From a virus, in the IMG/VR virus record IMGVR_UViG_3300006033_000086, positions 1-30,508 of that record: a stretch of DNA of 30,508 bases. One strand, given 5' to 3'. The notes beneath the pieces are model-generated. The model saw nothing but the letters and a program-made list of their open reading frames with translations, made no database searches and was not told where the DNA came from. Shown here piece after piece: positions 268 to 11,897 of the stretch. A program made the position numbers and the translations under genes. Numbering within the stretch: the stretch's first letter is position 1; every line of letters begins with the position of its first letter.

Positions 268-1254
268 TCAGCTCTCCGGATCGGGCTGAATCACCTTCAC
301 GAACTTGCCCAGGACGCGGATCGGCGCGTCGGGCGGGTAGTGCTGCTCGGCGTGATCCGCGCTGCAGGGCACGAGGCGGAAGCCGTTATCGTCCATGTAA
401 AAGCGCTTGATCGTGCTGCCATCGTCGACCGCGACAAGCGCGATCTGACCGTTTGCGACCTCCGGCGTTTGATGAATCACGCAGTGGTCGCCGTCGTGGA
501 TCCCGCATTCAACCATGCTGTCGCCGTCCGCGATCACGATAAAGTCACCGGGGCGAATATCGTGCGCTACATCACCATTGGTGCGCAGCTCCTCGCCCTC
601 AAGGCTGATCATGGTCTTTGGTGCGCCTGCGGCGGCACGGCCTATGACAGGCAGGATCACGCGCGCGGGCGCAGATGGTGTTTCAGAAGCTGCGATCTCA
701 TTAAATGGAACGACCGCACCTTCGTCTTTGCGCCGGTTCACATAGCGCTGATAAGCGGAAAGCTTGGCAGGAAAATCGACGATCATATCCTCCATGCGCA
801 CCTCGATCCGGGCGCGATATCGAACGTCACTTTGATCCCACTCTTTAATAAGAAGATTCAGCCGCGCAACGAAGTCGAAGGAGCTGTCTTCGGACAGCAG
901 CTTGAGCATATCCCAGATGCGCGGGTAGGTCGGCGCGAATAGATAGCGCAGCTGCTCCAGCTGCTGTTCGCGGTACTCCATCTGGGTAAGCCGTTGGCGA
1001 AGATCCGGCTCCTCGATGACATACTCACGAATTCGATCCGCGAGAATCTCCTTTGAGCCCTCTCCTGTTTTTATCCACTGTTCTTCAACCTGAAAAATGA
1101 AACTAAGCATTGTGATGAGCGTATCGGAAGGAACGACTTTATCAGCTTCAATTCTTGACACGTATGATGGAGTTACTTTCAGTGCCATTGCAAGATCATA
1201 TTGCTTCATATTCTTTTCGGCACGTAGTCCACTGACCCTTGTTCCTAATGACAT
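268..1254 (-). CDS. LexA-like self-cleaving phage repressor (HTH-XRE + S24 peptidase)
   Basis: This 328-residue protein is the likely lysogeny master repressor. Residues about 4-60 form an XRE-type helix-turn-helix (QYDLAMALKVTPSYVSRIEA). Residues about 195-322 form an S24/LexA peptidase: a probable Ala209-Gly210 cleavage bond (GRAAAG), nucleophile Ser246 in DGDSM, and general-base Lys283 in GSTIKRF. The middle 130 residues are a helical linker longer than in LexA. The start has AGGAG 8 nt upstream. It is divergent from the early operon and faces an operator/promoter region (1271-1320). The S24 domain implies RecA-stimulated autocleavage, so SOS induction is expected (inferred from the family), unlike the non-cleaving Mu c repressor. 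Confidence 0.93.
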   Translation of the reverse strand: MSLGTRVSGLRAEKNMKQYDLAMALKVTPSYVSRIEADKVVPSDTLITMLSFIFQVEEQWIKTGEGSKEILADRIREYVIEEPDLRQRLTQMEYREQQLEQLRYLFAPTYPRIWDMLKLLSEDSSFDFVARLNLLIKEWDQSDVRYRARIEVRMEDMIVDFPAKLSAYQRYVNRRKDEGAVVPFNEIAASETPSAPARVILPVIGRAAAGAPKTMISLEGEELRTNGDVAHDIRPGDFIVIADGDSMVECGIHDGDHCVIHQTPEVANGQIALVAVDDGSTIKRFYMDDNGFRLVPCSADHAEQHYPPDAPIRVLGKFVKVIQPDPES

Positions 1255-1660: not shown

Positions 1661-2305
1661 ATGGGATTACTGAAAGAAACCATGCAAGCGATCATCCGCA
1701 TTGATCGGAACCTCGCCGAAATCCGCAAGGAGTTAGCGTTTGAAAGAGACGCTAAATACTTCCGCGCTGTGTATCAACAGAAGCCGATTGAGCAGGTTCG
1801 TTCCGATGAGCAGCGGAAGACTGAAATAGAGGAATCGCTATTCGATCGACTTTCTCAGCTCGATAGATTCCCGCATCCCGACCACTTGACGTTTGGTGGA
1901 AGGCTAAAGGCCGTGCGAGCGTTCTGGAGACTCAAACAAGATGAGCTTGCAAGCGAAATAGGCGTTTCGCCTCCGCACATCTCAAACCTAGAAGCAGATA
2001 AGAGCACACCATCTGCGATGTTGATCCGCTCCGTGAGCCGGAGATTCAGTATCAACGAGACATGGCTTGCCACCGGCCATCTCCCGCAAACCACCGAAGA
2101 ACCCGCGACGCCGATCCACCTCGGCAAGATCGTGCCGCTGAGCGGGTACGGGGAGAAAGACGCGGAACAAGAAACGTGCGACGCTATATCTCAGCGCCTT
2201 CGGTTGATTGGAGAGGAAGAAGACTTAAATCGTCAGGGCAGGGTTCGTTGTAGTCGATATCCATCGCATTGTACTCAAGCAACACCTGAACAGCAAAAGT
2301 CTTAG
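1661..2305 (+). CDS. XRE-family HTH regulator
   Basis: A 214-residue protein with AGGAG before the ATG. A charged N-terminal helix (about 1-60) is followed by an XRE helix-turn-helix at about 67-125 (QDELASEIGVSPPHISNLEA) ending in a W-x-x-TG motif. The repressor HTH also ends in a W-x-x-TG motif, so the two may recognise related operators. There is no S24 peptidase domain. The last 41 codons overlap the convergent gene at 2184-2456; that C-terminal part is low in recognisable protein character and may be a dispensable read-through tail. It is likely an early regulator, possibly of the dyad at 2469-2484. Confidence 0.75.
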   Translation: MGLLKETMQAIIRIDRNLAEIRKELAFERDAKYFRAVYQQKPIEQVRSDEQRKTEIEESLFDRLSQLDRFPHPDHLTFGGRLKAVRAFWRLKQDELASEIGVSPPHISNLEADKSTPSAMLIRSVSRRFSINETWLATGHLPQTTEEPATPIHLGKIVPLSGYGEKDAEQETCDAISQRLRLIGEEEDLNRQGRVRCSRYPSHCTQATPEQQKS

Positions 2306-2456
2306 CTATCTCCATGATTACAGTGAGCTGAGGCTTCGTAAAAACAGAACTGATTTTGCTGTCTTTCTCAGAATAAGCCTTTTCGAATTTCTTGATGACG
2401 CGGTCAGTCAGAAAATTAAGTTCACTCTTGAGATCTTGAACTTCTTTTACACCCAT
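2184..2456 (-). CDS. Small antisense-oriented hypothetical protein
   Basis: A 90-residue protein on the strand opposite to the early operon. ATG at 2456 is preferred over the GTG at 2465 because AGGAGG lies 8 nt before the ATG. The protein is charged and helical (DLKSELNFLTDRVIKKFEKA) and unrecognised. Its DNA is more AT-rich than its neighbours, suggesting separate acquisition. It overlaps the 3' end of the XRE gene by 122 bp, tail to tail. A perfect 16-bp palindrome sits immediately upstream of its ribosome binding site, so it is probably regulated separately from the early operon. Confidence 0.6.
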   Translation of the reverse strand: MGVKEVQDLKSELNFLTDRVIKKFEKAYSEKDSKISSVFTKPQLTVIMEIAKTFAVQVLLEYNAMDIDYNEPCPDDLSLLPLQSTEGAEI

Positions 2457-2468
2457 TGGTTCCACCTC

Positions 2469-2484
2469 CTGAGATTTATCTCAG
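2469..2484. promoter_or_regulatory. Perfect 16-bp palindrome, putative operator or RNA hairpin
   Basis: CTGAGAT, TT, ATCTCAG is a perfect inverted repeat. It lies between the minus-strand gene starting at 2456 and the hammerhead element at 2493. As DNA it fits a dimeric regulator site; as minus-strand RNA it would form a hairpin directly abutting the AGGAGG and could limit ribosome access. Confidence 0.55.
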
Positions 2485-2492
2485 CATACCAC

Positions 2493-2555
2493 ACAGCCGA
2501 AACCGCCACAAGGCGGTCTGCCGGAGACGGGCTACCGGCACTGACGAGGCAGCCT
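2493..2555 (+). ncRNA. Type II hammerhead ribozyme, copy 1
   Basis: All hammerhead core elements are present in order. GAAA is at 2499-2502. Stem III is 2502-2507 with 2512-2517 (loop ACAA). The cleavage triplet GUC ends at 2518. Stem I is 2519-2524 with 2535-2540 (10-nt loop). The CUGACGA core is 2541-2547. Stem II is formed by 2548-2550 pairing back to 2496-2498, so stem II is the open end (type II). GGGCU in loop I (2529-2533) can pair with AGCCU at 2551-2555, a pseudoknot-like contact of the kind that supports fast cleavage. The expected cut is between 2518 and 2519, 55 nt before the next start codon. Hammerheads are known in phage and bacterial genomes. I have no activity data. Confidence 0.9.
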
Positions 2556-2573
2556 AGAAAGGATTTAGTCGGG

Positions 2574-2864
2574 ATGGTAACGATCAAAGTAAGCGACAGC
2601 GGCGAATGCCGCGTCACAGTGAAAGGCCCTTGGGACACCGTGCAGAAGAATCTGCAAGTGGCAGCCAACAAGGTGCGCGGGATGGCACACGACAGCAGGC
2701 AGTTTGCGAGCATCACGGATGGCACTTTTATCCCTCCGATGCAGGTGCCAAGGCAACCGCCGAGGCAGCCGCGCGAGGATCATCCGCAGGAGTTCCGGCA
2801 GGAACGACAGCCGTCGATCAGCCGCCCTGCGCCAGCTGAGCGCCCCGCAGGAGGTGCCGCGTGA
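2574..2864 (+). CDS. Small hypothetical protein with Pro/Arg/Gln-rich tail
   Basis: A 96-residue protein that begins just after the first hammerhead element and has AAAGGA about 11 nt upstream. The N-terminal 60 residues look folded (ITDGTFIPP near the end); the C-terminal 40 residues are rich in Pro, Arg and Gln and probably disordered. It overlaps the next gene by 4 nt (GTGA), indicating translational coupling. It is the first gene of the small-gene cassette. Function unknown. Confidence 0.6.
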   Translation: MVTIKVSDSGECRVTVKGPWDTVQKNLQVAANKVRGMAHDSRQFASITDGTFIPPMQVPRQPPRQPREDHPQEFRQERQPSISRPAPAERPAGGAA

Positions 2865-3094
2865 AGAAGGTCAAGCTGTACTACCGGATGCTGGAGAGCA
2901 ACAACGTCGACGCCGAAACCGAGGAGGGCGAAACGGTCGTGCTCGTAACGGACGGCATCGCCCAGCGGCTCCTTGAGGGGCAGAAGGTCGGCAAGGCAGT
3001 TTGCTACCTGATCGCGCTGGCAGCCTTGCAGGGCTGGAACGGCGGGTGCCACCTACTCAAGGCGGAAGAGGTCGCGGAGGCGGACAATGGGTAG
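2861..3094 (+). CDS. Small early protein, divergent member of the paralog cassette
   Basis: A 77-residue protein starting at GTG, overlapping the previous stop as GTGA. It begins with VKLYYRM and ends with LAALQGW followed by an acidic tail. These two segments match the N-terminal VK-(L/I)-x-(V/I)-TY-x-M and central LxxLQGY signatures of the genes at 3087, 3547 and 3795, so I consider it a divergent paralog. No catalytic motif or membrane segment. Function unknown. Confidence 0.65.
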   Translation: MKKVKLYYRMLESNNVDAETEEGETVVLVTDGIAQRLLEGQKVGKAVCYLIALAALQGWNGGCHLLKAEEVAEADNG

Positions 3095-3368
3095 AAAGAC
3101 GCTTACAGTCACCTACCACATGGAACGCCCAAAGGAAACGGCGGAATCCTGCATCGACTTGCCGGTTGATGATGTTCTGGTAGACATTGTGCTCAAAACC
3201 GGATGCAGAGAACCTGCTTCTATGAAAAAGGTCACGGCAATGAATCCGGGCGAGATGGCGGTGTGGGCAGTGTGGGAGGTTGTTCGAGCTCTTGCCTATT
3301 TACAGCTTTACACGCACCCGACAATCGTCGACATCCGCATCGCGAATCCCGAGGAGGCACCTACATGA
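3087..3368 (+). CDS. Small early protein, paralog family member
   Basis: A 93-residue protein overlapping the upstream gene by 8 nt. It shares with the genes at 3547 and 3795 an N-terminal LTVTYHM, an Ile-Asp-Leu segment, a helical region with LAYLQLY, and a C-terminal IVDIRIAN. This copy has a longer central insertion (about 15 residues containing KKVTAMNPGEMA). It overlaps the zinc-ribbon gene by 4 nt. No known function recognised. Confidence 0.7.
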   Translation: MGRKTLTVTYHMERPKETAESCIDLPVDDVLVDIVLKTGCREPASMKKVTAMNPGEMAVWAVWEVVRALAYLQLYTHPTIVDIRIANPEEAPT

Positions 3369-3550
3369 ACGAGCACGTGGCGAAGGAAAACGCAGACGGC
3401 ACGTGGACGATCAAGATCAAAATTCAGGTTCCGAAGTGCTCTAACTGCGAAGTCCCGCTCAACAATGACCTATCATGCCCGGCATGCCGGATCCAGTATA
3501 CGGTCACTTCCGTAGGGATCGGTCATATGAGCGGCGGAGGTGGATCATGA
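3365..3550 (+). CDS. Zinc-ribbon small protein
   Basis: A 61-residue protein starting at ATG 3365 (ATGA overlap with the preceding gene). It carries CSNC and CPAC separated by nine residues, a CX2C-X9-CX2C zinc ribbon, and ends in a glycine-rich tail. Such ribbons bind nucleic acid or protein. It overlaps the next gene by 4 nt, so the whole cassette appears to be translated as one coupled unit. Confidence 0.68.
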   Translation: MNEHVAKENADGTWTIKIKIQVPKCSNCEVPLNNDLSCPACRIQYTVTSVGIGHMSGGGGS

Positions 3551-3798
3551 GCAATACGGTCAAGCTCACGATCACGTACACAATGAAAAAAGGCGACCGC
3601 ACTGACGAGGACAGCATTGATATCTCTGCGGACATTGGTACGGCACTGCTGCTACGGAGCGGAAGCGTTGAGGATGGATACCTCAAGCAACGCGCAAAGG
3701 TATACACCTTGGTCAACGTGTTGGCAGCACTGCAAGGTTACGATTGCGCCGATATCGTAAAAATCCGGCATGCAGCTAAGAAAGGGACGGCAGTATGA
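3547..3798 (+). CDS. Small early protein, paralog family member
   Basis: An 83-residue protein with GGAGG about 7 nt before ATG 3547. Signatures: VKLTITYTM at the start, DSIDIS near residue 25, LAALQGY near residue 63, and DIVKIRHA near the C-terminus. These align with the products at 3087 and 3795. The even spacing and ATGA overlaps point to tandem duplication. The predicted fold is alpha/beta; no catalytic residues recognised. Confidence 0.72.
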   Translation: MSNTVKLTITYTMKKGDRTDEDSIDISADIGTALLLRSGSVEDGYLKQRAKVYTLVNVLAALQGYDCADIVKIRHAAKKGTAV

Positions 3799-4043
3799 GC
3801 GAAATGGTCAAGATCGCGGTAACCTACGACATGGTGGTCTTCAAGAGCCATCAGGAGGGCCGAATCGAACTTGCGGTACCCAAACGGCTTTCGGGGATCC
3901 TCGTGCATGACCGGCACTGCTACGACAACACCGTTGCCAAGACGGAGATCATCCGGATCATCTCAGGCATCGCGCATTTGCAGGGGTACGAGACAGCAAC
4001 GATTTCAAATATCCGCTACGCTAACTCCTCCAGAACGGCATAA
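3795..4043 (+). CDS. Small early protein, paralog family member
   Basis: An 82-residue protein, ATGA-coupled to the previous gene. It has VKIAVTYDM, RIELAV, IAHLQGY and TISNIRYAN in the same order as the paralogs at 3087 and 3547. Its TAA stop (4041-4043) touches the first base of the second hammerhead element, so the cassette ends exactly where that RNA begins. Function unknown. Confidence 0.72.
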   Translation: MSEMVKIAVTYDMVVFKSHQEGRIELAVPKRLSGILVHDRHCYDNTVAKTEIIRIISGIAHLQGYETATISNIRYANSSRTA

Positions 4044-4105
4044 CAGCCGAAACCGCCGCAAGGCGGTCTGCCGGAAATGGGCTACCGGCACCGATGAGGC
4101 AGCCC
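4043..4105 (+). ncRNA. Type II hammerhead ribozyme, copy 2 (core variant)
   Basis: This is a 57/62 identical copy of 2493-2554. GAAA is at 4049-4052. Stem III is 4052-4057 with 4062-4067 around a GCAA loop. GUC ends at 4068. Stem I is 4069-4074 with 4085-4090. The core is CCGAUGA at 4091-4097, and stem II is 4098-4100 with 4046-4048. GGGCU in loop I (4079-4083) pairs perfectly with AGCCC at 4101-4105. None of the five differences from copy 1 lies in a helix. One, however, changes core U4 to C, which is expected to weaken or abolish cleavage. The predicted cut is after 4068, 57 nt before the transposase start. Confidence 0.8.
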
Positions 4106-4125
4106 GACAACAAATGGAGAGCAAT

Positions 4126-6177
4126 ATGGAAGCTGAACAATACATTGATACTGGCACAGCCGCGCTGCTCTTGGACGTGCACCCGAATACGGTGCTCAAC
4201 ATGATTCGCGACGGCAAGTTGTCAGCTCAAGAACTCGACGGAAACCGTGGCGGGAATCATGGCAAGCGTCAGCTCATCGCTGTCGCGAGTATGCCGCTCA
4301 ACGCTCGAATCAAGTATGTGGCGCAGATCGACGCGGCTCACCCGGTGAGCAACGTCGACCTGATTACGTACCAGGAGCGGTTCGGCGACGACGGTATGAA
4401 GGAGCTTTGGAAACGGCATCAGACGGTCATAGCCTGCAAGGCGGTGGTCGCGGCTGCCGGATGGAAGCGCCAGACCGAGACGAAAGAGCAGTTTGCAGAC
4501 GAATGCGGAATCACTACTCGGACGCTGTACCGCTGGATCAAAGCCTATGACGCCGAGGGAATCGCGGGATTGATGGACAAGGTCGATCAGGCCAACAAGG
4601 GGCGCATGACCTCGATGTGCATGCTCTCGCAGGATCTCGCAAAGTCAGAGCTGTTCGGGCCTTCGCGCAAGACACACAGCGCAACCTACGCCGCGATTCT
4701 CATGCAAGCCAAGAAGCTCGGCAAGAACGGCTGCCAGCACTGCGTTCACAACGCCGACAGCCTCGTGCGCCGAGAGTTCGCGTTTCGCGGCGAGGCGGAT
4801 CACTACGCGATCTGCGATCAGGTCGGCGGCGGGATGATCGTGCCGGGCACGAGATCGACCTTTAACCGCTTTGTGTCGACGATTCCCAAAGATGAGATGG
4901 CCTACGCGCGCAAGGGCAAACGGTACTGGGAAGCACATTACATGCCGAAAGCCGACCGCGTCCGGCCTGAACGTGCCAACGAATGCTGGTTCGGCGATCA
5001 CCACATGTTTGACCTTTTCGTCATCGACGATGACGGCGCGATTGTGCGACCGTGGATGACCGCATGGTCGGACGCGGCGACAGGCTGCTTCGTGAGCTAC
5101 TGCATTACGACCAACCCGAACAGCGGGACGATCGCGGAGACCTTTGTGCGGGCGATCCCGCAGAAAGCCGGATCTGAGTTTTACGGAATACCGAATCTGA
5201 TCTACATCGACAACGGTAAAGACTACCGAAGCAAGAAGTTTGAGGGCGAACGCGAGGTCGAGCATGTGATTGGTCGGCTGAACGAGAAGATGGAAGCCAC
5301 GGGCATCCTGCAGCAGCTCGGCGTGTCCGTGATCCACGCACAACCATACAAGGCGTGGTCAAAGGTCATTGAGCGGCTCTTCGGAACGCTTGAGGGCCGA
5401 TACATCCGCGAATTGCCCGGCTGGTGCGGAAACAGCCCCGGCGCGAGGCCGGAAGAGCTCACATCGGCACGTCTGCGGCACATGGCGGAAAAAGGGCAGT
5501 TGCTCACGCTTCAGCAGTTTGAGAAGATCATCCGCGAGCAGGTCATCCCGCAGTATCATGCAGAGCGGTTCAGCAACGCCCAATCGCCGATCGAACTGTA
5601 TCGTTCCTTGGAACGCTCTCGAGACGATATGCCGAGCTGGGAAGTGCTCGACTTCATCAAGCAGGAGCGCTGCACCCGCAAGGTTTACCCGAAGGGCGTC
5701 AAGCTCAACAACCGCTGGTACTGGCACGAAGACATGCGCCGCCTGGTCGACCGCACCGTAACCGTGAGATTCAGCCTTGATGATGACAGCAGCGTAGCGA
5801 TCGTTGACAACAAGCACTTCATCTGCCACGCGCCGCTCAAGGAGCAGATAGCCATGATCAACGCGGATCGTGAACAGCTCTCCTCGCACATGGCGATGCA
5901 GCGCAGTACACGTCACGAGGTGATCGACGGCATCAGCCGATCCAAGGCTGTTGCGGACAGCCTCAGGCAGCGGAACGTGATCTATGAGACGATCGACCTC
6001 AAGCAGGTCGGGTACACTGGAAAGACCACAACGGAATTCCGCCGGGCGGCAAAGAGCAAGGCTGCCATCGATCAGGAGCGCCGGATCCGCGCCGGGCAGG
6101 AAACCGACACGGCAAATGATCGTGTGCTAGAGATGCTCAAGCAGACCTATCGAGACAGAGCAGTAGCGCAAGACTGA
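4126..6177 (+). CDS. Mu-type DDE transposase (A protein)
   Basis: A 683-residue protein matching MuA in size (663) and layout. ATG 4126 is chosen for its GGAGA at 5-nt spacing; the open frame extends further upstream but through the hammerhead element. The N-terminus (about 5-50) has an excisionase-like winged helix, then an HTH near 122-140 (ITTRTLYRWIKAY). The RNase-H-like catalytic core has Asp291 (GDHHMFD), Asp362 (YIDNGKD) and Glu416 (VIERLFGTLE). A Mu C-terminal beta-barrel-like region and a charged helical tail, which should contact the B ATPase, follow. It carries out replicative transposition. Next to the B ATPase gene. Confidence 0.95.
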   Translation: MEAEQYIDTGTAALLLDVHPNTVLNMIRDGKLSAQELDGNRGGNHGKRQLIAVASMPLNARIKYVAQIDAAHPVSNVDLITYQERFGDDGMKELWKRHQTVIACKAVVAAAGWKRQTETKEQFADECGITTRTLYRWIKAYDAEGIAGLMDKVDQANKGRMTSMCMLSQDLAKSELFGPSRKTHSATYAAILMQAKKLGKNGCQHCVHNADSLVRREFAFRGEADHYAICDQVGGGMIVPGTRSTFNRFVSTIPKDEMAYARKGKRYWEAHYMPKADRVRPERANECWFGDHHMFDLFVIDDDGAIVRPWMTAWSDAATGCFVSYCITTNPNSGTIAETFVRAIPQKAGSEFYGIPNLIYIDNGKDYRSKKFEGEREVEHVIGRLNEKMEATGILQQLGVSVIHAQPYKAWSKVIERLFGTLEGRYIRELPGWCGNSPGARPEELTSARLRHMAEKGQLLTLQQFEKIIREQVIPQYHAERFSNAQSPIELYRSLERSRDDMPSWEVLDFIKQERCTRKVYPKGVKLNNRWYWHEDMRRLVDRTVTVRFSLDDDSSVAIVDNKHFICHAPLKEQIAMINADREQLSSHMAMQRSTRHEVIDGISRSKAVADSLRQRNVIYETIDLKQVGYTGKTTTEFRRAAKSKAAIDQERRIRAGQETDTANDRVLEMLKQTYRDRAVAQD

Positions 6178-6187
6178 TGTCAAAAAA
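6172..6187 (-). repeat. GACTGATGTCAAAAA repeat, copy a
   Basis: GACTGATGTCAAAAAA overlaps the transposase stop codon. The same 14- to 15-mer recurs at 11239-11253 and, in the opposite orientation, twice at the right end (30404-30441). It may be a binding site for the transposase or a phage regulator. Confidence 0.55.
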
Positions 6188-6257
6188 GTGACTACAAGGC
6201 CCGATCCCGTGGAAGCCGGGATCGCCCCTCAAGGGGCGCGGCGCTCGCCAGTCATTT
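6186..6257 (+). ncRNA. Multi-branched structured leader between transposase and B ATPase
   Basis: The 98-bp gap between the two transposition genes folds well by eye. An 8-bp closing helix pairs 6186-6193 with 6250-6257 (one G-U). Inside it are hairpins 6203-6209/6217-6223 (7 bp, GATCCCG), 6225-6228/6233-6236 (CCCC, UCAA loop) and a short 6240-6242/6247-6249. The structure ends about 5 nt before AAGGAGG. It is not followed by a U-run, so it is not a plain terminator. I do not recognise a known ribozyme or riboswitch in it. Confidence 0.5.
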
Positions 6258-6275
6258 GATAAGGAGGTACATATC

Positions 6276-7274
6276 ATGGCAGAGGCATTACACCAGACCG
6301 AGAGCAGCTCCATCTACGAGCGGGATTCCCGCAGCCTGGATGGACTGCGCGCTTCACTCCGGAACCTGCAGGTCTACGGCATCACGTATGCGAAGATCGC
6401 GGAAGCGACCGGCGTCAACCGCTCGACGATCAGTCAGTTTGCCAACAATAACGAACCCATGACATACGCCAATGTCGACAAGCTTCAGGCCTATGTCGCG
6501 AAGCGAGAGGCTGAGATTGTCCCGATGGCATCCGAATTGAGCAAGCAGCAGGGACAGCAGACCATCGGGCTTTGGCAGACCGAAGAGTATCAGGCCGCCA
6601 TGGGCTGGATGCACTATGTATGGGATCACCGCAAGATGGGCGTCCTCGTCGGCGCGCCCGGTACGGGCAAGACGACGATCCTCAAGCAGTTTCAGCGCGA
6701 CGTGCCCGGCGCGGTCTACATCGAGGCTCAGCCGCACATGCGCTGCAAAGACCTGTTCAACGCGATCGCGGACGGAGCGGGCATCCAGCTGGGCAAGGGA
6801 AACGCCTACGAGCGCTTCGCCTCGCTCCTCGACGGCCTACGCGGGCGCAGCGATATCATGATCCTCGTCGATGAAGCCGAGTATCTGCACAAATGGGACG
6901 CTGATAAGTTTGAATATCTGCGGAAGATTTGGGACAATACCGGAACGCCCGTGGTGCTCTGCGGCACCAACGCACTAGAATTGCTGCTGACAAGAGGCGC
7001 AGGTCGGCAGAACTTAGCCCAGCTCTATCGCCGTAAATATGAGTTGCAGCTCAAAGGCATCACTGCCAAGGCGATTATGACCCACCTGCGCCAATACAAT
7101 CTTACCACGGACGCCGCCACGATGCTATCAGAAATCGGTTCGGACACCCAGCACGGCGGTCTTGGAAACCTCGTAGAAATCCTTGAGCTCTGCCTTGAGA
7201 CGGCAGCCGGTGGCCCGATCGACGCCGACATGGTGAGATCCGCCAAAAAGTACAAGCTCATGTATACGAGGTGA
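6276..7274 (+). CDS. Mu B-like AAA+ ATPase (transposition target protein)
   Basis: A 332-residue protein, close to MuB (312). AAGGAGG sits well before ATG 6276. An N-terminal HTH (about 36-58, YAKIAEATGVNRSTISQF) resembles the MuB DNA-binding domain. Walker A is GAPGTGKTT at 126-134, Walker B IMILVDEAE at 194-202, followed by a sensor-like VLCGTN. In Mu this ATPase coats target DNA, delivers it to transposase and provides target immunity. Its place directly after the transposase gene supports the call. Confidence 0.93.
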   Translation: MAEALHQTESSSIYERDSRSLDGLRASLRNLQVYGITYAKIAEATGVNRSTISQFANNNEPMTYANVDKLQAYVAKREAEIVPMASELSKQQGQQTIGLWQTEEYQAAMGWMHYVWDHRKMGVLVGAPGTGKTTILKQFQRDVPGAVYIEAQPHMRCKDLFNAIADGAGIQLGKGNAYERFASLLDGLRGRSDIMILVDEAEYLHKWDADKFEYLRKIWDNTGTPVVLCGTNALELLLTRGAGRQNLAQLYRRKYELQLKGITAKAIMTHLRQYNLTTDAATMLSEIGSDTQHGGLGNLVEILELCLETAAGGPIDADMVRSAKKYKLMYTR

Positions 7275-7279
7275 GCGAG

Positions 7280-7582
7280 ATGGCTAAACTTGATCGAACT
7301 TGGTACGAGAAAGCTGCTGACATTATTGCCAGCAGCGCCAGCCCTGAAGAACGTCTCGCGGCACTCAACGAAATCTGGAGTGAGTACTGCTTCTTGACAA
7401 GCCGAAAGGTCGCCGGGCTGACGGTGGCATATGAGCTTCCTGTTGAATGGGTCAGGGAGATGGTGAATGACCAACTCAAGAGCGCCACCGGATACACCCT
7501 TGAGGAGATCATAGAATTTGCAAAGGAGAAAATAGCAAATGGCACGAATGAAACCCACGAAACAGCTACCGACCCTGAGTAG
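7280..7582 (+). CDS. Small hypothetical protein between B and Gam
   Basis: A 100-residue acidic, mostly helical protein. ATG 7280 is preferred over the GTG at 7271 because GAGGTG lies 6 nt upstream of it. It starts 5 nt after the B gene stop and overlaps gam by 44 nt. Small genes of unknown, non-essential function occupy this semi-essential early region in Mu. No motif recognised. Confidence 0.62.
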   Translation: MAKLDRTWYEKAADIIASSASPEERLAALNEIWSEYCFLTSRKVAGLTVAYELPVEWVREMVNDQLKSATGYTLEEIIEFAKEKIANGTNETHETATDPE

Positions 7583-8057
7583 CTGGGATGAAGTAGATCT
7601 CGCGCTCAAGGCGATCGGGTCGCTCCAGCGATCCGTTGAAGCCGCCGAGAGCATCATGCAGGAAGAGATCGATGCCGCAAAGCTCAAGGCCAAGGAGGCA
7701 GCCGATCCCGATCTTGCGAAGATCGCGGCGATCTCCAGACAGGTGCAGGACTATGCGGAGCTGCACCGCGATGATCTGGTCAGCAAGAAGACCAAGCCGC
7801 TCGTCTTCGGCGTCATCGGATGGCGCAAGAGCACGAAGGTCAAGCTGCCGAAGGACAAGACGCGGCTTGCGGACATCATCGACCTGCTCCACCGTGTCGG
7901 ATGGCACGACTGTGTCACCCAAGCGGATCCGACGATCAACAAGGAAGCGCTGCGCTTGCATGACTTCGCCGAGGTCAAGAAGCTCGGAATCGACGTTTCG
8001 ACTGAGGACGTCTTCTGGTTGGAACCGGCGCGCGACGACCTCACCAAGAAGGAGTAG
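7539..8057 (+). CDS. gam: Gam-like DNA-end-protecting protein
   Basis: A 172-residue protein of the Mu Gam family (Mu Gam is 174). Characteristic segments are a start with SWDEVDLALKAIGSLQR, a long coiled central helix pair, and GVIGWRKSTKVKLP. Gam is a Ku-like dimer that binds double-strand DNA ends and blocks host exonucleases. AAGGAG lies about 9 nt before ATG 7539. The order B, small gene, Gam, GemA matches Mu-like genomes. Confidence 0.92.
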   Translation: MARMKPTKQLPTLSSWDEVDLALKAIGSLQRSVEAAESIMQEEIDAAKLKAKEAADPDLAKIAAISRQVQDYAELHRDDLVSKKTKPLVFGVIGWRKSTKVKLPKDKTRLADIIDLLHRVGWHDCVTQADPTINKEALRLHDFAEVKKLGIDVSTEDVFWLEPARDDLTKKE

Positions 8058-8060
8058 ACC

Positions 8061-8474
8061 ATGGAAAACGCGCTCATCAACAAAGAGCAGATCAAGGCCA
8101 TTTGGGCACTCTCCCATGTTGTGGGAATGGATCGCGACGAAGTCTACGCGATGGCCCGTGTCGAGCATTTGCACGATATGACGATGGCGGGTGCGATCCA
8201 GATGATTGATCTGCTCAAGCATATGGCCGGGCAGGACAAGAACGAGGATAAACCCGTTCCGCAGGGCAAGCCGACGACCAAAGAGATGTCCATGATCAAT
8301 GCTCTGACCCATAAGCTTGGTTGGTCAGATGAACGCCTCAAGGCGTTTGTCGAGAAGCGGTTCGGGATATCGCACCCGCGCTTTCTGGATGACAAGACCG
8401 CGCGTAAGGTCATCGAAGCCCTCAAAGCTATGCTGGCCGGTGGGCGCGGAGAAAGGAGACAAGCTAGTGATTGA
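8061..8474 (+). CDS. GemA-like regulatory protein (gp16 family, DUF1018)
   Basis: A 137-residue protein resembling the Mu GemA/gp16 family. It has two similar helical modules, one near the N-terminus (IKAIWALSHVVGMDRDEVYA) and one near residues 75-110 (INALTHKLGWSDERLKAFVEK), and ends in a helical tail. In Mu, GemA affects host gene expression and DNA topology. It begins 3 nt after gam and overlaps the Mor-like gene by 8 nt, as in other Mu-like genomes. Confidence 0.82.
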   Translation: MENALINKEQIKAIWALSHVVGMDRDEVYAMARVEHLHDMTMAGAIQMIDLLKHMAGQDKNEDKPVPQGKPTTKEMSMINALTHKLGWSDERLKAFVEKRFGISHPRFLDDKTARKVIEALKAMLAGGRGERRQASD

Positions 8475-8799
8475 AATACCAAAGTGGATGATTGAAACAG
8501 TGCCGGACGAGCTGCCTGACGTATACCAGCGAATCGTCGACCTGATAGGTTACAGATCGATGTTGGCTCTGATCTCGAACTACGGTGGCGATTATATGTA
8601 TGTGCCTAAGCTCGACCAGCTCCAGCGGGTCATGCGCGATGATAAGCTTATGGCCGACTACATAAAGGGAACCACGCCTGACCAGTTGGCTCACCGTTAT
8701 AACCTGTCAGTTGTGCAGGTATACGAGATCATCAAAAAGCAAAACAAGAAGGCGGGGATCATCGGAGATCAGATTTCATTGCTGGAAACCGGAACGTAA
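8467..8799 (+). CDS. mor: Mor-family middle transcription activator
   Basis: A 110-residue protein starting at GTG 8467, within a strong GGAGAAAGGAG context. It has the Mor/C family layout: an N-terminal dimerisation part (LPDVYQRIVDLIGYRSMLAL), a central GGDYMYVPK strand, and a C-terminal HTH (TPDQLAHRYNLSVVQVYEII). In Mu, Mor activates the middle promoter. It is the last early gene, and the 107-nt gap after it holds a small dyad and a strong terminator, so it probably controls the downstream operon. Confidence 0.9.
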   Translation: MIEIPKWMIETVPDELPDVYQRIVDLIGYRSMLALISNYGGDYMYVPKLDQLQRVMRDDKLMADYIKGTTPDQLAHRYNLSVVQVYEIIKKQNKKAGIIGDQISLLETGT

Positions 8800-8814
8800 T
8801 TTAAGAACATAAAA

Positions 8815-8829
8815 TAGATACCTTGTCTA
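8815..8829. promoter_or_regulatory. Small dyad downstream of mor, possible activator site
   Basis: TAGA and TCTA flank a 7-bp spacer, in an AT-rich stretch 16 bp after the mor stop. Mor-family activators bind short interrupted dyads upstream of weak promoters. No convincing sigma-70 boxes are visible here, which would fit an activator-dependent promoter, but this is inference. Confidence 0.35.
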
Positions 8830-8853
8830 ACGGGGCATGGCGAAAACATTACA

Positions 8854-8891
8854 TAATACCGATGCGTGGAACGCATCGGTATTAGTTTTTT
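8854..8891 (+). terminator. Strong intrinsic terminator in front of the middle/late genes
   Basis: A perfect 14-bp stem (8854-8867 with 8871-8884, GGA loop) is followed by six T residues ending at 8891. The next gene has its ribosome binding site at about 8894, so any promoter serving that gene from upstream must pass this terminator. Confidence 0.9.
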
Positions 8892-8905
8892 ATAGGAGCT
8901 GCTGT

Positions 8906-9205
8906 ATGAAAACCGACTGGGTCACATGGGTAATTCAAACATTGATCGGGATAGGATTCGCAATCGTCGCCTATTTCTGGAAGAAGGATCAGGCCTCACT
9001 GCAGGCGCGACTTGAGAAAGTAGAGTGCCGGTTGGATGCGCATGACAAGCAGCTCGCAGAGATGCCGTTTGTATATGTCACCAAAGACGACTTCATCCGT
9101 GCGATTGCAAGAGTTGAAAGCACGGTAAACGAGAATCAGCGAAAAACGGAAGCCAAGCTCGACAAGATTCTCGACCACATAATGGCGCGTGAAAAGGAGA
9201 ACTGA
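8906..9205 (+). CDS. Membrane-anchored coiled-coil protein (Mu gp25/DUF2730-like)
   Basis: A 99-residue protein; ATG 8906 is chosen for its TAGGAG 7 nt upstream, the longer frame having no ribosome binding site. One transmembrane segment covers about residues 7-24 (VIQTLIGIGFAIVAYFW), followed by a charged coiled coil to the end. Mu-like phages carry a protein of this architecture (DUF2730) just before the gp26 and gp27 genes, as here. Its role is unknown. A lysis (spanin/holin) role is possible but less likely given the lysis genes at 28462-29944. Confidence 0.7.
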   Translation: MKTDWVTWVIQTLIGIGFAIVAYFWKKDQASLQARLEKVECRLDAHDKQLAEMPFVYVTKDDFIRAIARVESTVNENQRKTEAKLDKILDHIMAREKEN

Positions 9206-9206
9206 T

Positions 9207-9500
9207 ATGGGTCAGTCGATCGAAGCAATCAGAAACAAAGAGGTGCGCGGCTGCATCATGCGCGCCCTCGCCCTCTCGCAATTCAACCCACTCAGCAGCC
9301 ACACGCTGCAGATGGCATTGGTTGATAAGTGCACCGACATCATGCCTCAGGTACGCTATCTCGAGAGCAAAGGGTACATCAGCGTGCAGGACGTCAGCAA
9401 AGAGAACCTCGGCGGCATTCCATACCTGATCAATCTGACCGCAGTTGGCGTCGACCTGATCGAGGGCAGCATTGCGCCGGATCCGGGGGTCTCACTGTAA
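9207..9500 (+). CDS. Winged-helix-like protein (Mu gp26 position)
   Basis: A 97-residue protein with AAGGAGA 6 nt before ATG 9207. Helical N-terminus, then LESKGYISVQDV and ITL-type strands that look like a winged helix-turn-helix (TDIMPQVRYLESKGYI). It overlaps the DUF3486-like gene by 1 nt. Mu-like phages keep a gp25-gp26-gp27 order that fits. It probably assists DNA recognition by the terminase, but this is inferred. Confidence 0.68.
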   Translation: MGQSIEAIRNKEVRGCIMRALALSQFNPLSSHTLQMALVDKCTDIMPQVRYLESKGYISVQDVSKENLGGIPYLINLTAVGVDLIEGSIAPDPGVSL

Positions 9501-10075
9501 TGGGCAAGCAGCGGACGAAAAACCGCATAAAGTCCCGCGTGGACGAGCTGCCGCCCGAAGCCCGCGAGATGCTCAACAGCATGCTTGCAGACGTCAACTA
9601 CACCTATGTGCAGATCTCCGAAGCAATGGCTTGCAAAGGCTGGGAGATCAGCCGCCAAAGCGTTGGGCGCTACGCCCTTCGGCAAAACGCGGTAGCCAAT
9701 CGGTTGATGGACGTTCGCGAGCAGACCACTGCGCTGCTGGCGGTAGCGCGAACCAACCAGGATGTCGAGGCGACTGAGTTGGCGACGTCGATCCTGATCG
9801 ACGGTCTCACGCAGAAGATTGCGACCGCGCAGGAAGAGTTTGACGAAATGCCCCTCGAAAAGGCGGGCAAGCTGCTCGTAGCGCTTCAGCGATCGGCAGT
9901 CTATAAAGCCCGGATGCGCGCCACTCGCGCGCAGGCCTGTCATGACGTCGAAGCAAACATCCTCGCGAAGATCCGCGAACAGGTACAGGGCGATCCGGAG
10001 CTGGTAGCTCGCCTTTCCGCTATCGTGTCGGCAGCTGCCACCGAGGAGGCCAAGCGCCATGAAAACGACGAGTAA
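9500..10075 (+). CDS. Putative small terminase subunit (DUF3486, Mu gp27-like)
   Basis: A 191-residue protein typical of DUF3486: a basic start (KQRTKNRIKSRVDELPPEAR), an HTH-like portion (YVQISEAMACKGWEISRQSVGRY), then long helices and an acidic end. The family is regarded as the small terminase subunit of Mu-like phages and is normally adjacent to the large subunit. Here about 1.9 kb (NusG-like, DUF6527 and methyltransferase genes) separate it from the large terminase at 12000. It overlaps the next gene by 17 nt. Confidence 0.83.
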   Translation: MGKQRTKNRIKSRVDELPPEAREMLNSMLADVNYTYVQISEAMACKGWEISRQSVGRYALRQNAVANRLMDVREQTTALLAVARTNQDVEATELATSILIDGLTQKIATAQEEFDEMPLEKAGKLLVALQRSAVYKARMRATRAQACHDVEANILAKIREQVQGDPELVARLSAIVSAAATEEAKRHENDE

Positions 10076-10574
10076 GTGGTACGCGCTGTATGTGGCATCC
10101 GGGCAAGAGCTTGAGGTCGCTTGCGCGATCGGACGGCTGGCGTGGTGCGAGGCATCCGCTCCCCTTGTCAAATACGACTATCGCGGTGCATGGCGCATCG
10201 AACCTCTCTTCGGTGGTTACGTATTCGTCCACTGCGACCTCACCCCGACGCTTTACTACCAGCTGATCGATATCAAGGGTGTGATCCGCATCCTGGGCGT
10301 GATGCCCGGCGGGCAGCTTCCGGAGGCGATCCCTGATCAAGACATGTGGTGGATCGATACGTTGAAGGCCTACAGCCTGACATCCATGGTCATCGGTGAA
10401 TCAGAAGGCAAACGCGGCGCGAATGGCCGCGTAGAGATCACCAGCGGCTTTCTGAAAGAGATCCCGCAATACATCACCAAGATTAACGCACGGCAGCATT
10501 ACGCAGTCGTAGAGCTGCCAGTCGGCGGGACGGTGCACAAGCTCCGGTTTGGCATCAACGTCAATTCCAATTAA
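10059..10574 (+). CDS. NusG-family transcription elongation factor paralog (LoaP/RfaH-type)
   Basis: A 171-residue protein. The N-terminal NGN domain covers about 5-105: KWYALYVASGQE, then LFGGYVFVHCDL and IKGVIRILG, the conserved core of NusG proteins. About 125-168 corresponds to a KOW-type domain (VEITSGFLKEI, INARQHYAVVELPV). NusG paralogs bind the RNA polymerase clamp and promote read-through of pauses and terminators, often after recruitment by a specific DNA or RNA element. AGGAGG lies 10 nt before ATG. Its operon contains several intrinsic terminators just ahead of genes, so it is a good candidate for a phage antiterminator. The function is inferred. Confidence 0.87.
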   Translation: MKTTSKWYALYVASGQELEVACAIGRLAWCEASAPLVKYDYRGAWRIEPLFGGYVFVHCDLTPTLYYQLIDIKGVIRILGVMPGGQLPEAIPDQDMWWIDTLKAYSLTSMVIGESEGKRGANGRVEITSGFLKEIPQYITKINARQHYAVVELPVGGTVHKLRFGINVNSN

Positions 10575-11002: not shown

Positions 11003-11192
11003 AAGCACCGGAACACCGGGGCAAGCGTGCAGAACGCCTTTGGGGGGTCACACCCCGATGCCCCGACAATGCCTCCCGACTGGCGGGGGCGCGGTCTTTG
11101 GTTCTTTCCCCGCGCCCCCATTCCTTTTGTCCACTCTCGCCGGATCACGGCGTCATACATACACAGGTTACTTTTTGCAGAGAGGAGGGATA
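11003..11192. other. 190-bp GC-rich non-coding gap with hairpins
   Basis: No convincing gene start lies here. The plus strand contains short inverted repeats (CCGG/CCGG near 11010-11022; GCGT/ACGC near 11025-11037; GGGG/CCCC near 11043-11055) and then the 10-bp terminator-like stem at 11085-11119. The last 30 bp hold the ribosome binding site of the methyltransferase. A long frame starting at 10803 runs through it but has no start signal and overlaps the DUF6527 gene. Confidence 0.6.
11085..11127 (+). terminator. Terminator-like GC stem upstream of the methyltransferase
   Basis: A perfect 10-bp stem GGGGGCGCGG (11085-11094) with its complement at 11110-11119 and a 15-nt loop is followed by ATTCCTTTTG. 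The U-tract is imperfect, so termination may be partial. The methyltransferase starts 66 nt later, downstream of this element. Confidence 0.6.
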
Positions 11193-11897
11193 ATGCAACA
11201 TCTGAAAATTGACCGAATCTACAATACGGACTGCGCACGACTGATGTCAAAAATCAGCAGCCAGTCCGTCGACCTTATCCTGACAGATCCACCTTACGGG
11301 ATCTGCTACAAGTCCAAGAGCCGACGCCTCAGCCGCCAGACGGTGGCCGGAGATGAAGCTCCCTATATTTGGTGGCTCAAGGAGGCTGACCGCATCCTCA
11401 AGGATGACGGCAGCCTGCTTTGTTTTACGCGGTGGGATGTGCTTGGAGCATGGCACACCGCGATCGAGTACGCCGGGCTTCGAGTGCGTTCCTGCATCGT
11501 GTGGGACAAGGGCATACACGGCATGGGAAATACAAAGGCGGCGTTCGCGCCGCAGCACGAGCTTTGCCTCTTTGCCACCAAGCACGACTTCGAGTTCAAG
11601 AGTGGTCGACCTACGGACGTGATCCGCGTCGGCAAGCTTGCATCATCCGAGATGATCCACCCGACACAAAAGCCGGTCGAGCTGTTCGAGCAGCTCATCA
11701 ACGTGACCACGTTGCCCGGCGCACTCGTCGTGGATCCATTCGCCGGAAGCGGGACAACCGCGATGGCAGCTATCAATACCGGACGGCATTTTGTATGCTG
11801 CGAGATCGATCACACCCACTTCACAGCCTCCTGCAGGAGGGTTGCCGCCCGCCTTAAAGAGGCGCAAGCGACCGAGCCGCTGACAGGCTCGCAGTAA
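11193..11897 (+). CDS. DNA adenine/cytosine-N4 methyltransferase
   Basis: A 234-residue beta-class (D12-N6/N4) DNA methyltransferase. Catalytic motif IV is DPPY at residues 32-35, HPTQKP at 156-161, and the SAM-binding FAGSGTT at 183-189 lies near the C-terminus. ATG 11193 has AGGAGGG 5 nt upstream; the longer frame from 10803 is not real coding. There is no restriction enzyme partner, so it is an orphan. It probably modifies phage DNA against host restriction, the role Mu's Mom plays by other chemistry. It overlies repeat copy b at 11238-11253. Confidence 0.92.
   Translation: MQHLKIDRIYNTDCARLMSKISSQSVDLILTDPPYGICYKSKSRRLSRQTVAGDEAPYIWWLKEADRILKDDGSLLCFTRWDVLGAWHTAIEYAGLRVRSCIVWDKGIHGMGNTKAAFAPQHELCLFATKHDFEFKSGRPTDVIRVGKLASSEMIHPTQKPVELFEQLINVTTLPGALVVDPFAGSGTTAMAAINTGRHFVCCEIDHTHFTASCRRVAARLKEAQATEPLTGSQ
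11238..11253 (-). repeat. GACTGATGTCAAAAA repeat, copy b (inside the methyltransferase gene)
   Basis: CGACTGATGTCAAAAA sits in the early part of the methyltransferase reading frame (RLMSK). It is identical over 15-16 bases to the right-end copies read on the other strand. Because it lies in coding sequence it may be chance shared codons or a true protein-binding site. Confidence 0.5.

Follow-up and report, generated by a model that had tools for sequence, protein, structure and literature searches.

The early operon of a Mu-like phage

The DNA analysed here (the window) is a 30.5 kb IMG/VR record (IMGVR_UViG_3300006033_000086, 30,508 nucleotides). It carries MuA, a MuB ATPase, Gam, GemA, Mor and Mu Gp27 in that order, together with a divergent repressor (Table 1), and this is the gene order of a Mu-like phage. 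An earlier reading made from the letters alone (the sequence-only reading) had placed a hammerhead ribozyme in the early operon of such a phage, just before a gene cassette, and both the phage type and the placement are borne out. The window contains three predicted self-cleaving ribozymes, two hammerheads and one twister-sister, all on the same strand and each before an early gene or gene block. These were obtained with cmscan against all 4227 Rfam families with no preselection, and a search of the window against Rfam up to an E-value of 1 gave no ribozymes beyond these three. Gene boundaries are those of a simple ORF caller.

Table 1. Early genes and predicted ribozymes of the window.
Feature	Position	Strand	Basis or remark
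S24-type repressor	268-1254	-	PF00717 2.4e-21; divergent from the early operon
Two helix-turn-helix regulator genes	1351-1650, 1661-2305	+	PHROGs and Pfam HTH matches
Type II hammerhead ribozyme 1	2495-2558	+	Rfam RF02276 51.5 bits, covariation, fold; consensus core
Accessory cassette, small ORFs between the hammerheads	2574-4043	+	At least two ORFs paralogous
Type II hammerhead ribozyme 2	4045-4108	+	Rfam RF02276 47.0 bits; core U4C (C4092)
MuA-type transposase	4126-6177	+	PHROG 310 E 2.4e-91; Mu-transpos_C 5.9e-12
Twister-sister ribozyme, MuA/MuB gap	6187-6258	+	Rfam RF02681 51.1 bits
MuB-like AAA ATPase	6276-7274	+	AAA_22 6.6e-20, TniB 9.5e-6
Gam	7539-8057	+	PF07352 6.7e-35
GemA	8061-8474	+	PF06252 2.3e-13
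Mor-type activator	8467-8799	+	PF08765 8e-12

The early transcript presumably starts with the helix-turn-helix genes upstream of hammerhead 1. As the promoter scan did not rise above chance (3 found against 2.8 expected), TTGACA-17-TATTAT (1292-1320) stands as no more than a candidate for the early promoter; the terminator scan was also not above chance (4 found, 5.1 expected). A DNA similarity search with 2300-7300 gave no match among annotated phages. A Firmicutes host is suggested, since the closest relatives come from genomes of Clostridia and other Firmicutes.

Several of the smaller genes deserve mention. The cassette proteins matched no family in Pfam or PHROG, and a profile of the paralogues, run against the collected loci, recovered its own members only. 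Tandem ORFs of about 80 amino acids with an LQGY-type ending (2861-4043) look paralogous, the pair at 3547-3798 and 3795-4043 sharing 28% identity (E 2e-7), and a small cassette ORF at 3371-3550 has four cysteines and is zinc ribbon-like. On the minus strand, an ORF at 2184-2456 with a strong Shine-Dalgarno sequence (AGGAGGTGG) overlaps the end of a plus-strand helix-turn-helix gene and has its start some 40 nt away from hammerhead 1. It would be crossed in antisense by the early transcript. Finally, a NusG-domain protein is encoded directly after Mu Gp27 (10059-10574), has a homologue in the equivalent place in most relatives, and may act for the phage in transcription elongation or antitermination.

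A type II hammerhead before the accessory cassette

The sequence-only reading had called hammerhead 1 a type II hammerhead, and the covariance model agrees: the match to RF02276 (Hammerhead_II, gathering score 37) is full length (model positions 1-66, E 5.2e-8), and every element lies where that reading had put it. The core consists of GAAA at 2499-2502 and CUGACGA at 2541-2547, with A2502 paired to U2517. Stem III (2503-2507 with 2512-2516) is capped by an ACAA loop (2508-2511), GUC occupies 2516-2518, stem I is formed by 2519-2524 with 2535-2540, and stem II by 2496-2498 with 2548-2550. This is the full type II layout, with stems I and III closed, stem II open and a CUGANGA/GAAA/UH core, and the minimum-energy fold gives back all three stems. 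The cut is predicted between 2518 and 2519.

A pairing of loop I with the downstream tail (2529-2533 with 2551-2555; 5 bp including one G-U), also proposed from the letters, is confirmed by comparison. Such pseudoknots are common among type II hammerheads (PMC3088659), and in relatives this one covaries at two pairs, A-U in five and G-C in five at the first, C-G in eight and G-C in two at the second. Across ten homologous hammerheads, 96% of the paired cells of hammerhead and pseudoknot are kept, against 29-43% in slid registers, and both sides have changed at 11 of the 20 pairs, including the two pseudoknot pairs. The position of hammerhead 1 is exceptional, 189 nt past the last plus-strand stop; the next start codon on its 3' side is the ATG at 2574.

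A second hammerhead with a U4C core

Hammerhead 2, which the sequence-only reading had missed, is 90% identical to hammerhead 1 and likewise matches RF02276 over its full length. It follows the stop codon at 4043 by 1 nt and leaves 17 nt to the start of MuA; its predicted cleavage site is 4068|4069. The core reads CCGAUGA, that is, U4C, and is otherwise of type II, as is the stem layout; the lowest-energy fold, computed with the pseudoknot left out, is not the hammerhead fold. U4C has been reported to decrease activity in vitro considerably, yet to leave enough for viroid infectivity (PMC3088659).

Type II hammerheads are abundant across viral contigs. A pattern scan of these contigs, whose counts are no census since the pattern matches a single sequence subset of these ribozymes, found U4C in 21 stretches, the consensus in at least 119 and any of the three G5 substitutions in one. 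Stems I and III pair over at least 4 bp in all 22 distinct U4C sequences, and a pseudoknot of at least 4 bp is possible in 17. We had considered U4C as the mark of a decayed copy, and set this aside: because the stems stay intact wherever it recurs, U4C is, judged by these sequences, a recurrent and tolerated core of type II hammerheads. It is not bound to one junction, being in the second ribozyme of the window and in the first of the related locus L004; the Rfam-matched hammerhead before MuA in L158 also carries it.

A variant twister-sister between MuA and MuB

The third ribozyme, again missed in the sequence-only reading, is a full-length match to RF02681 (positions 1-81, gathering score 34) that lies 9 nt past the end of MuA and stops 17 nt short of MuB. 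It shares with the family model and with the twister-sister of PMC5660989 the GTG-AAGCC loop and the CGCU strand, but differs in the L1 active-site loop. There the consensus has G5, A63 and a 3' strand of 6 nt, whereas the window copy reads ACAAG/GCUCGCC, with A5, one additional base in the 3' strand (7 nt) and G63. Conservation of G5 in the family is not absolute (PMC5660989), nor does RF02681 strictly require it, so we have classed this copy as a loop variant inside the family. By analogy with C62-A63 of PMC5660989, cleavage is predicted at 6246|6247.

Ribozymes at the gene borders of related phages

Viral contigs supplied homologues of both MuA and MuB, and genome contigs further homologues of MuA; all were scanned with all Rfam families. 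The lineage closest to the MuA of the window comprises 17 loci, the window included, with MuA identities of about 28-51%; loci in which MuA is cut were assigned by their MuB. For MuB, a single-query search found one relative and a profile search four, and a search in plasmids gave distant AAA ATPases only. The tree of MuA and MuB has weak support at several of its deep forks and long branches for L009, L129 and L080.

Ribozymes occur in 15 of the 17 loci, 28 in total (10 type II hammerheads and 18 twister-sisters), and every one is in the sense orientation relative to MuA. At the gathering score there is none in L005 or L078 of the lineage, nor in 29 more distant MuA loci (L010-L038), and thus they are not essential to the Mu-like cycle. 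Of the 28, 23 start between -6 and +19 nt relative to the upstream ORF's stop codon, and in 23 of the 28 a start codon with a Shine-Dalgarno-like sequence follows within 7-28 nt.

Hammerhead and twister-sister stand in for one another at the same borders. Before MuA, the window, L004, L071 and L073 carry a hammerhead, L007 and L080 a twister-sister; the MuB-Gam region holds a twister-sister in L006, L008, L074, L075 and L079, and L009 has three hammerheads after MuB. A hammerhead directly preceding MuA is seen outside the lineage too, in the more distant Mu-like elements L154, L158, L216 and L226. The culturable lysogen Paenibacillus naphthalenovorans PR-N1 (L081) has three hammerheads downstream of MuB. 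That two unrelated folds with the same chemistry replace one another at one junction would mean that cleavage, rather than sequence, has been kept, and this is the strongest comparative argument that we have.

The junction after MuA has a pattern of its own. The first twister-sister after MuA is without G5 in 10 of 10 cases, and the other twister-sisters of the clade are without it in 0 of 9. The loop without G5 is combined with a 7-nt 3' strand in the window, L004, L006, L007, L070, L074, L075, L084 and L129, and L175 has the same C5 loop strand with a disrupted 3' half. The nine other lineage twister-sisters have G5 without exception and a 6-nt strand in eight, and both kinds are found within one phage in L006, L007, L074, L075 and L129. 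Among twister-sisters outside Mu-like elements found by pattern, G5 is usual and L171 an exception. These ten cases are not independent events, as one ancestral change at the junction followed by vertical inheritance would explain them. The L175 copy (11150-11260, minus strand) appears broken, its 3' half swapped for unrelated repeat-like sequence.

Strict inheritance of each ribozyme at one position proved only partly right. The post-MuA twister-sister fits it and the hammerhead copies do not: hammerhead 2 of the window is 95% identical to the first hammerhead of L004 (L004a), at another position, with MuA only 51% identical. Copies within one phage are also close (100% for L073a/b, 90% in L129 and 90% in the window).

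Relation to known ribozymes

That hammerheads are known in phages, as the sequence-only reading had said, holds; the early Mu-like setting is less out of the ordinary than that reading supposed, as a strong association with Mu-like phage genes and prophage gene blocks flanked by hammerheads have both been published (PMC3088659, PMC10085705). Perreault et al. 2011 (PMC3088659) described type II hammerheads flanking phage genes and proposed processing of transcripts (reviewed in PMC6155905), and their ribozymes have the fold, the loop I-tail pseudoknot and the consensus core of hammerhead 1, with several copies flanking genes in a phage and a long transcript as the proposed substrate. The operon described here differs in its second ribozyme class, in having MuA and MuB as the genes that the ribozymes bound, and in one U4C copy. 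The passage of PMC10085705 that bears on this, citing its authors' earlier work, associates hammerhead and twister ribozymes with Mu-like phage genes, with ribozymes clustered near one another as they are here, and leaves the biological reason open; it names the association alone, to which we add exact junctions, the exchange of classes and a junction-specific variant of the active site. As a kind, then, the arrangement was already known.

The new details are apparently the post-MuA loop without G5 and the recurring U4C. In the literature searched, outside which lies the 2015 twister-sister discovery paper, we found neither the hammerhead/twister-sister exchange around MuA and MuB, nor the junction-specific twister-sister loop, nor a recurring U4C among type II hammerheads. 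The glmS ribozyme, which is activated by a metabolite and lowers expression, likewise is a self-cleaving ribozyme in an mRNA that leaves a message with a 5'-OH, but here no ligand is indicated and the elements lie mostly between cistrons.

These observations bear on the reason for the abundance of self-cleaving ribozymes in bacteria and phages. The lineage offers a clean natural comparison, with well-defined MuA and MuB junctions, two unrelated folds at these junctions and natural variants of both cores, and makes the purpose of phage ribozymes testable.

A probably self-processed early transcript

We consider it reasonably probable that the three ribozymes are cis-encoded processing sites in one polycistronic early transcript, and that the early message probably cuts itself into pieces. 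A role in processing or mRNA stability had been put forward in the sequence-only reading, and the comparison favours it, because coding-strand elements occupy the stop/Shine-Dalgarno boundaries in relatives and because a second ribozyme class with the same chemistry occupies the same junctions. Each ribozyme would fold and cut its own strand as the polymerase passes, at 2518|2519, 4068|4069 and 6246|6247, and the message would be split into the helix-turn-helix regulators, the accessory cassette, MuA, and MuB-Gam-GemA-Mor. Upstream pieces would end in a 3' hairpin with a 2',3'-cyclic phosphate, and downstream pieces would have a 5'-OH end followed by a short leader: after a hammerhead, the stem I hairpin at the 5' terminus; after the twister-sister, about 29 nt of bare leader that include a strong Shine-Dalgarno sequence. 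The phage would probably gain independent stability and translation of adjacent early genes, above all of MuA apart from its neighbours. Family membership, covariation, position and conservation can be read directly from these sequences; cleavage in the cell, the stability of the products and the gain to the phage we infer. Arrays of hammerheads flanking genes in prophage regions cleave in vitro, and one also in E. coli (PMC3088659).

Two of the three ribozymes may be slow, given U4C in hammerhead 2 and the absence of G5 with G63 in the twister-sister, positions at which deviation reduces or abolishes activity in other constructs (PMC3088659, PMC5660989). Cleavage rates may be tuned. Somewhat unlikely, in our estimate, is that cleavage is tuned or conditional rather than the work of simple constitutive scissors, with deviating cores and ribosomes at overlapping stops setting how often each site is cut, so that MuA/MuB stoichiometry would track translation or ions. 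The restriction of the G5-less loop to the ten post-MuA copies, with G5 in all nine others, speaks for this, as do the intact stems of the 22 distinct U4C hammerheads against one match for three G5 mutants together, and the stop codons often found at or inside the ribozyme start. Each point has its counterpart: the extra loop base may offset the loss of G5, U4C is not tied to a single junction, and stop overlap may merely mirror compact phage genomes. In a published twister-sister construct G5C and G5U abolished cleavage, G5A nearly did so, and A63U abolished it (PMC5660989), but the natural variants carry an extra base and are not single mutants, so their activity cannot be predicted. More specifically, the ribozymes could form a junction-specific, rate-tuned set that grades self-cleavage of the early transcript, with the G5-less twister-sister and its extra loop base only after MuA and U4C hammerheads elsewhere, and graded cleavage would then set the ratio of MuA to MuB and hence commitment to transposition; this we judge unlikely.

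The near-identical copies within phages and the resemblance of hammerhead 2 to L004a across distant MuA genes could also mean that the ribozymes are recombination joints, short patches of homology through which cassettes are swapped or duplicated, with cleavage incidental; the cassettes between copies do vary among phages. Nothing in this account would lead one to expect that cores are conserved, that stems and pseudoknot covary, that the orientation is uniformly sense or that another ribozyme class takes over the same junction, and we regard it as improbable.

It is very improbable that the paired ribozymes serve to release the RNA of the cassette, about 1.55 kb from 2519 to 4068, as a separate molecule, or as a circle once its ends are ligated. 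Two hammerheads in direct orientation flank the cassette in the window, L004 and L073, and self-cleaved RNA ends suit RtcB-type ligation. Many relatives, though, have a single ribozyme near MuA, no ligase was recognised among the scanned window proteins, and spliced or circular products of such hammerhead arrays have been sought and none detected (PMC3088659). That the ribozymes are decaying or selfish copies of no benefit to the phage, as patchy presence and deviating cores might suggest, is hardly credible beside the compensatory changes in stems and pseudoknot, seen even between the U4C copies hammerhead 2 and L004a, and the conserved position at low MuA identity.

Ribozyme arrays in other settings

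Among 391 Clostridia genomes, a twister-sister search under a strict large-set filter gave no match, by which absence is not established, and type II hammerheads were present in 11. A Dysosmobacter MAG contig (G015:C29, L133) holds five twister-sisters of 70-85 bits in direct orientation within 3.4 kb (5992-9341), with no recognised MuA, MuB or Gam gene nearby. Two contigs of another MAG (G255 contigs C68 and C86; L151 and L152) carry five near-identical type II hammerheads with similar flanks and no recognised Mu genes, which looks like a repeated element. Finally, four viral contigs (L194, L224, L252, L265) pack three to six type II hammerheads each into a few kilobases.
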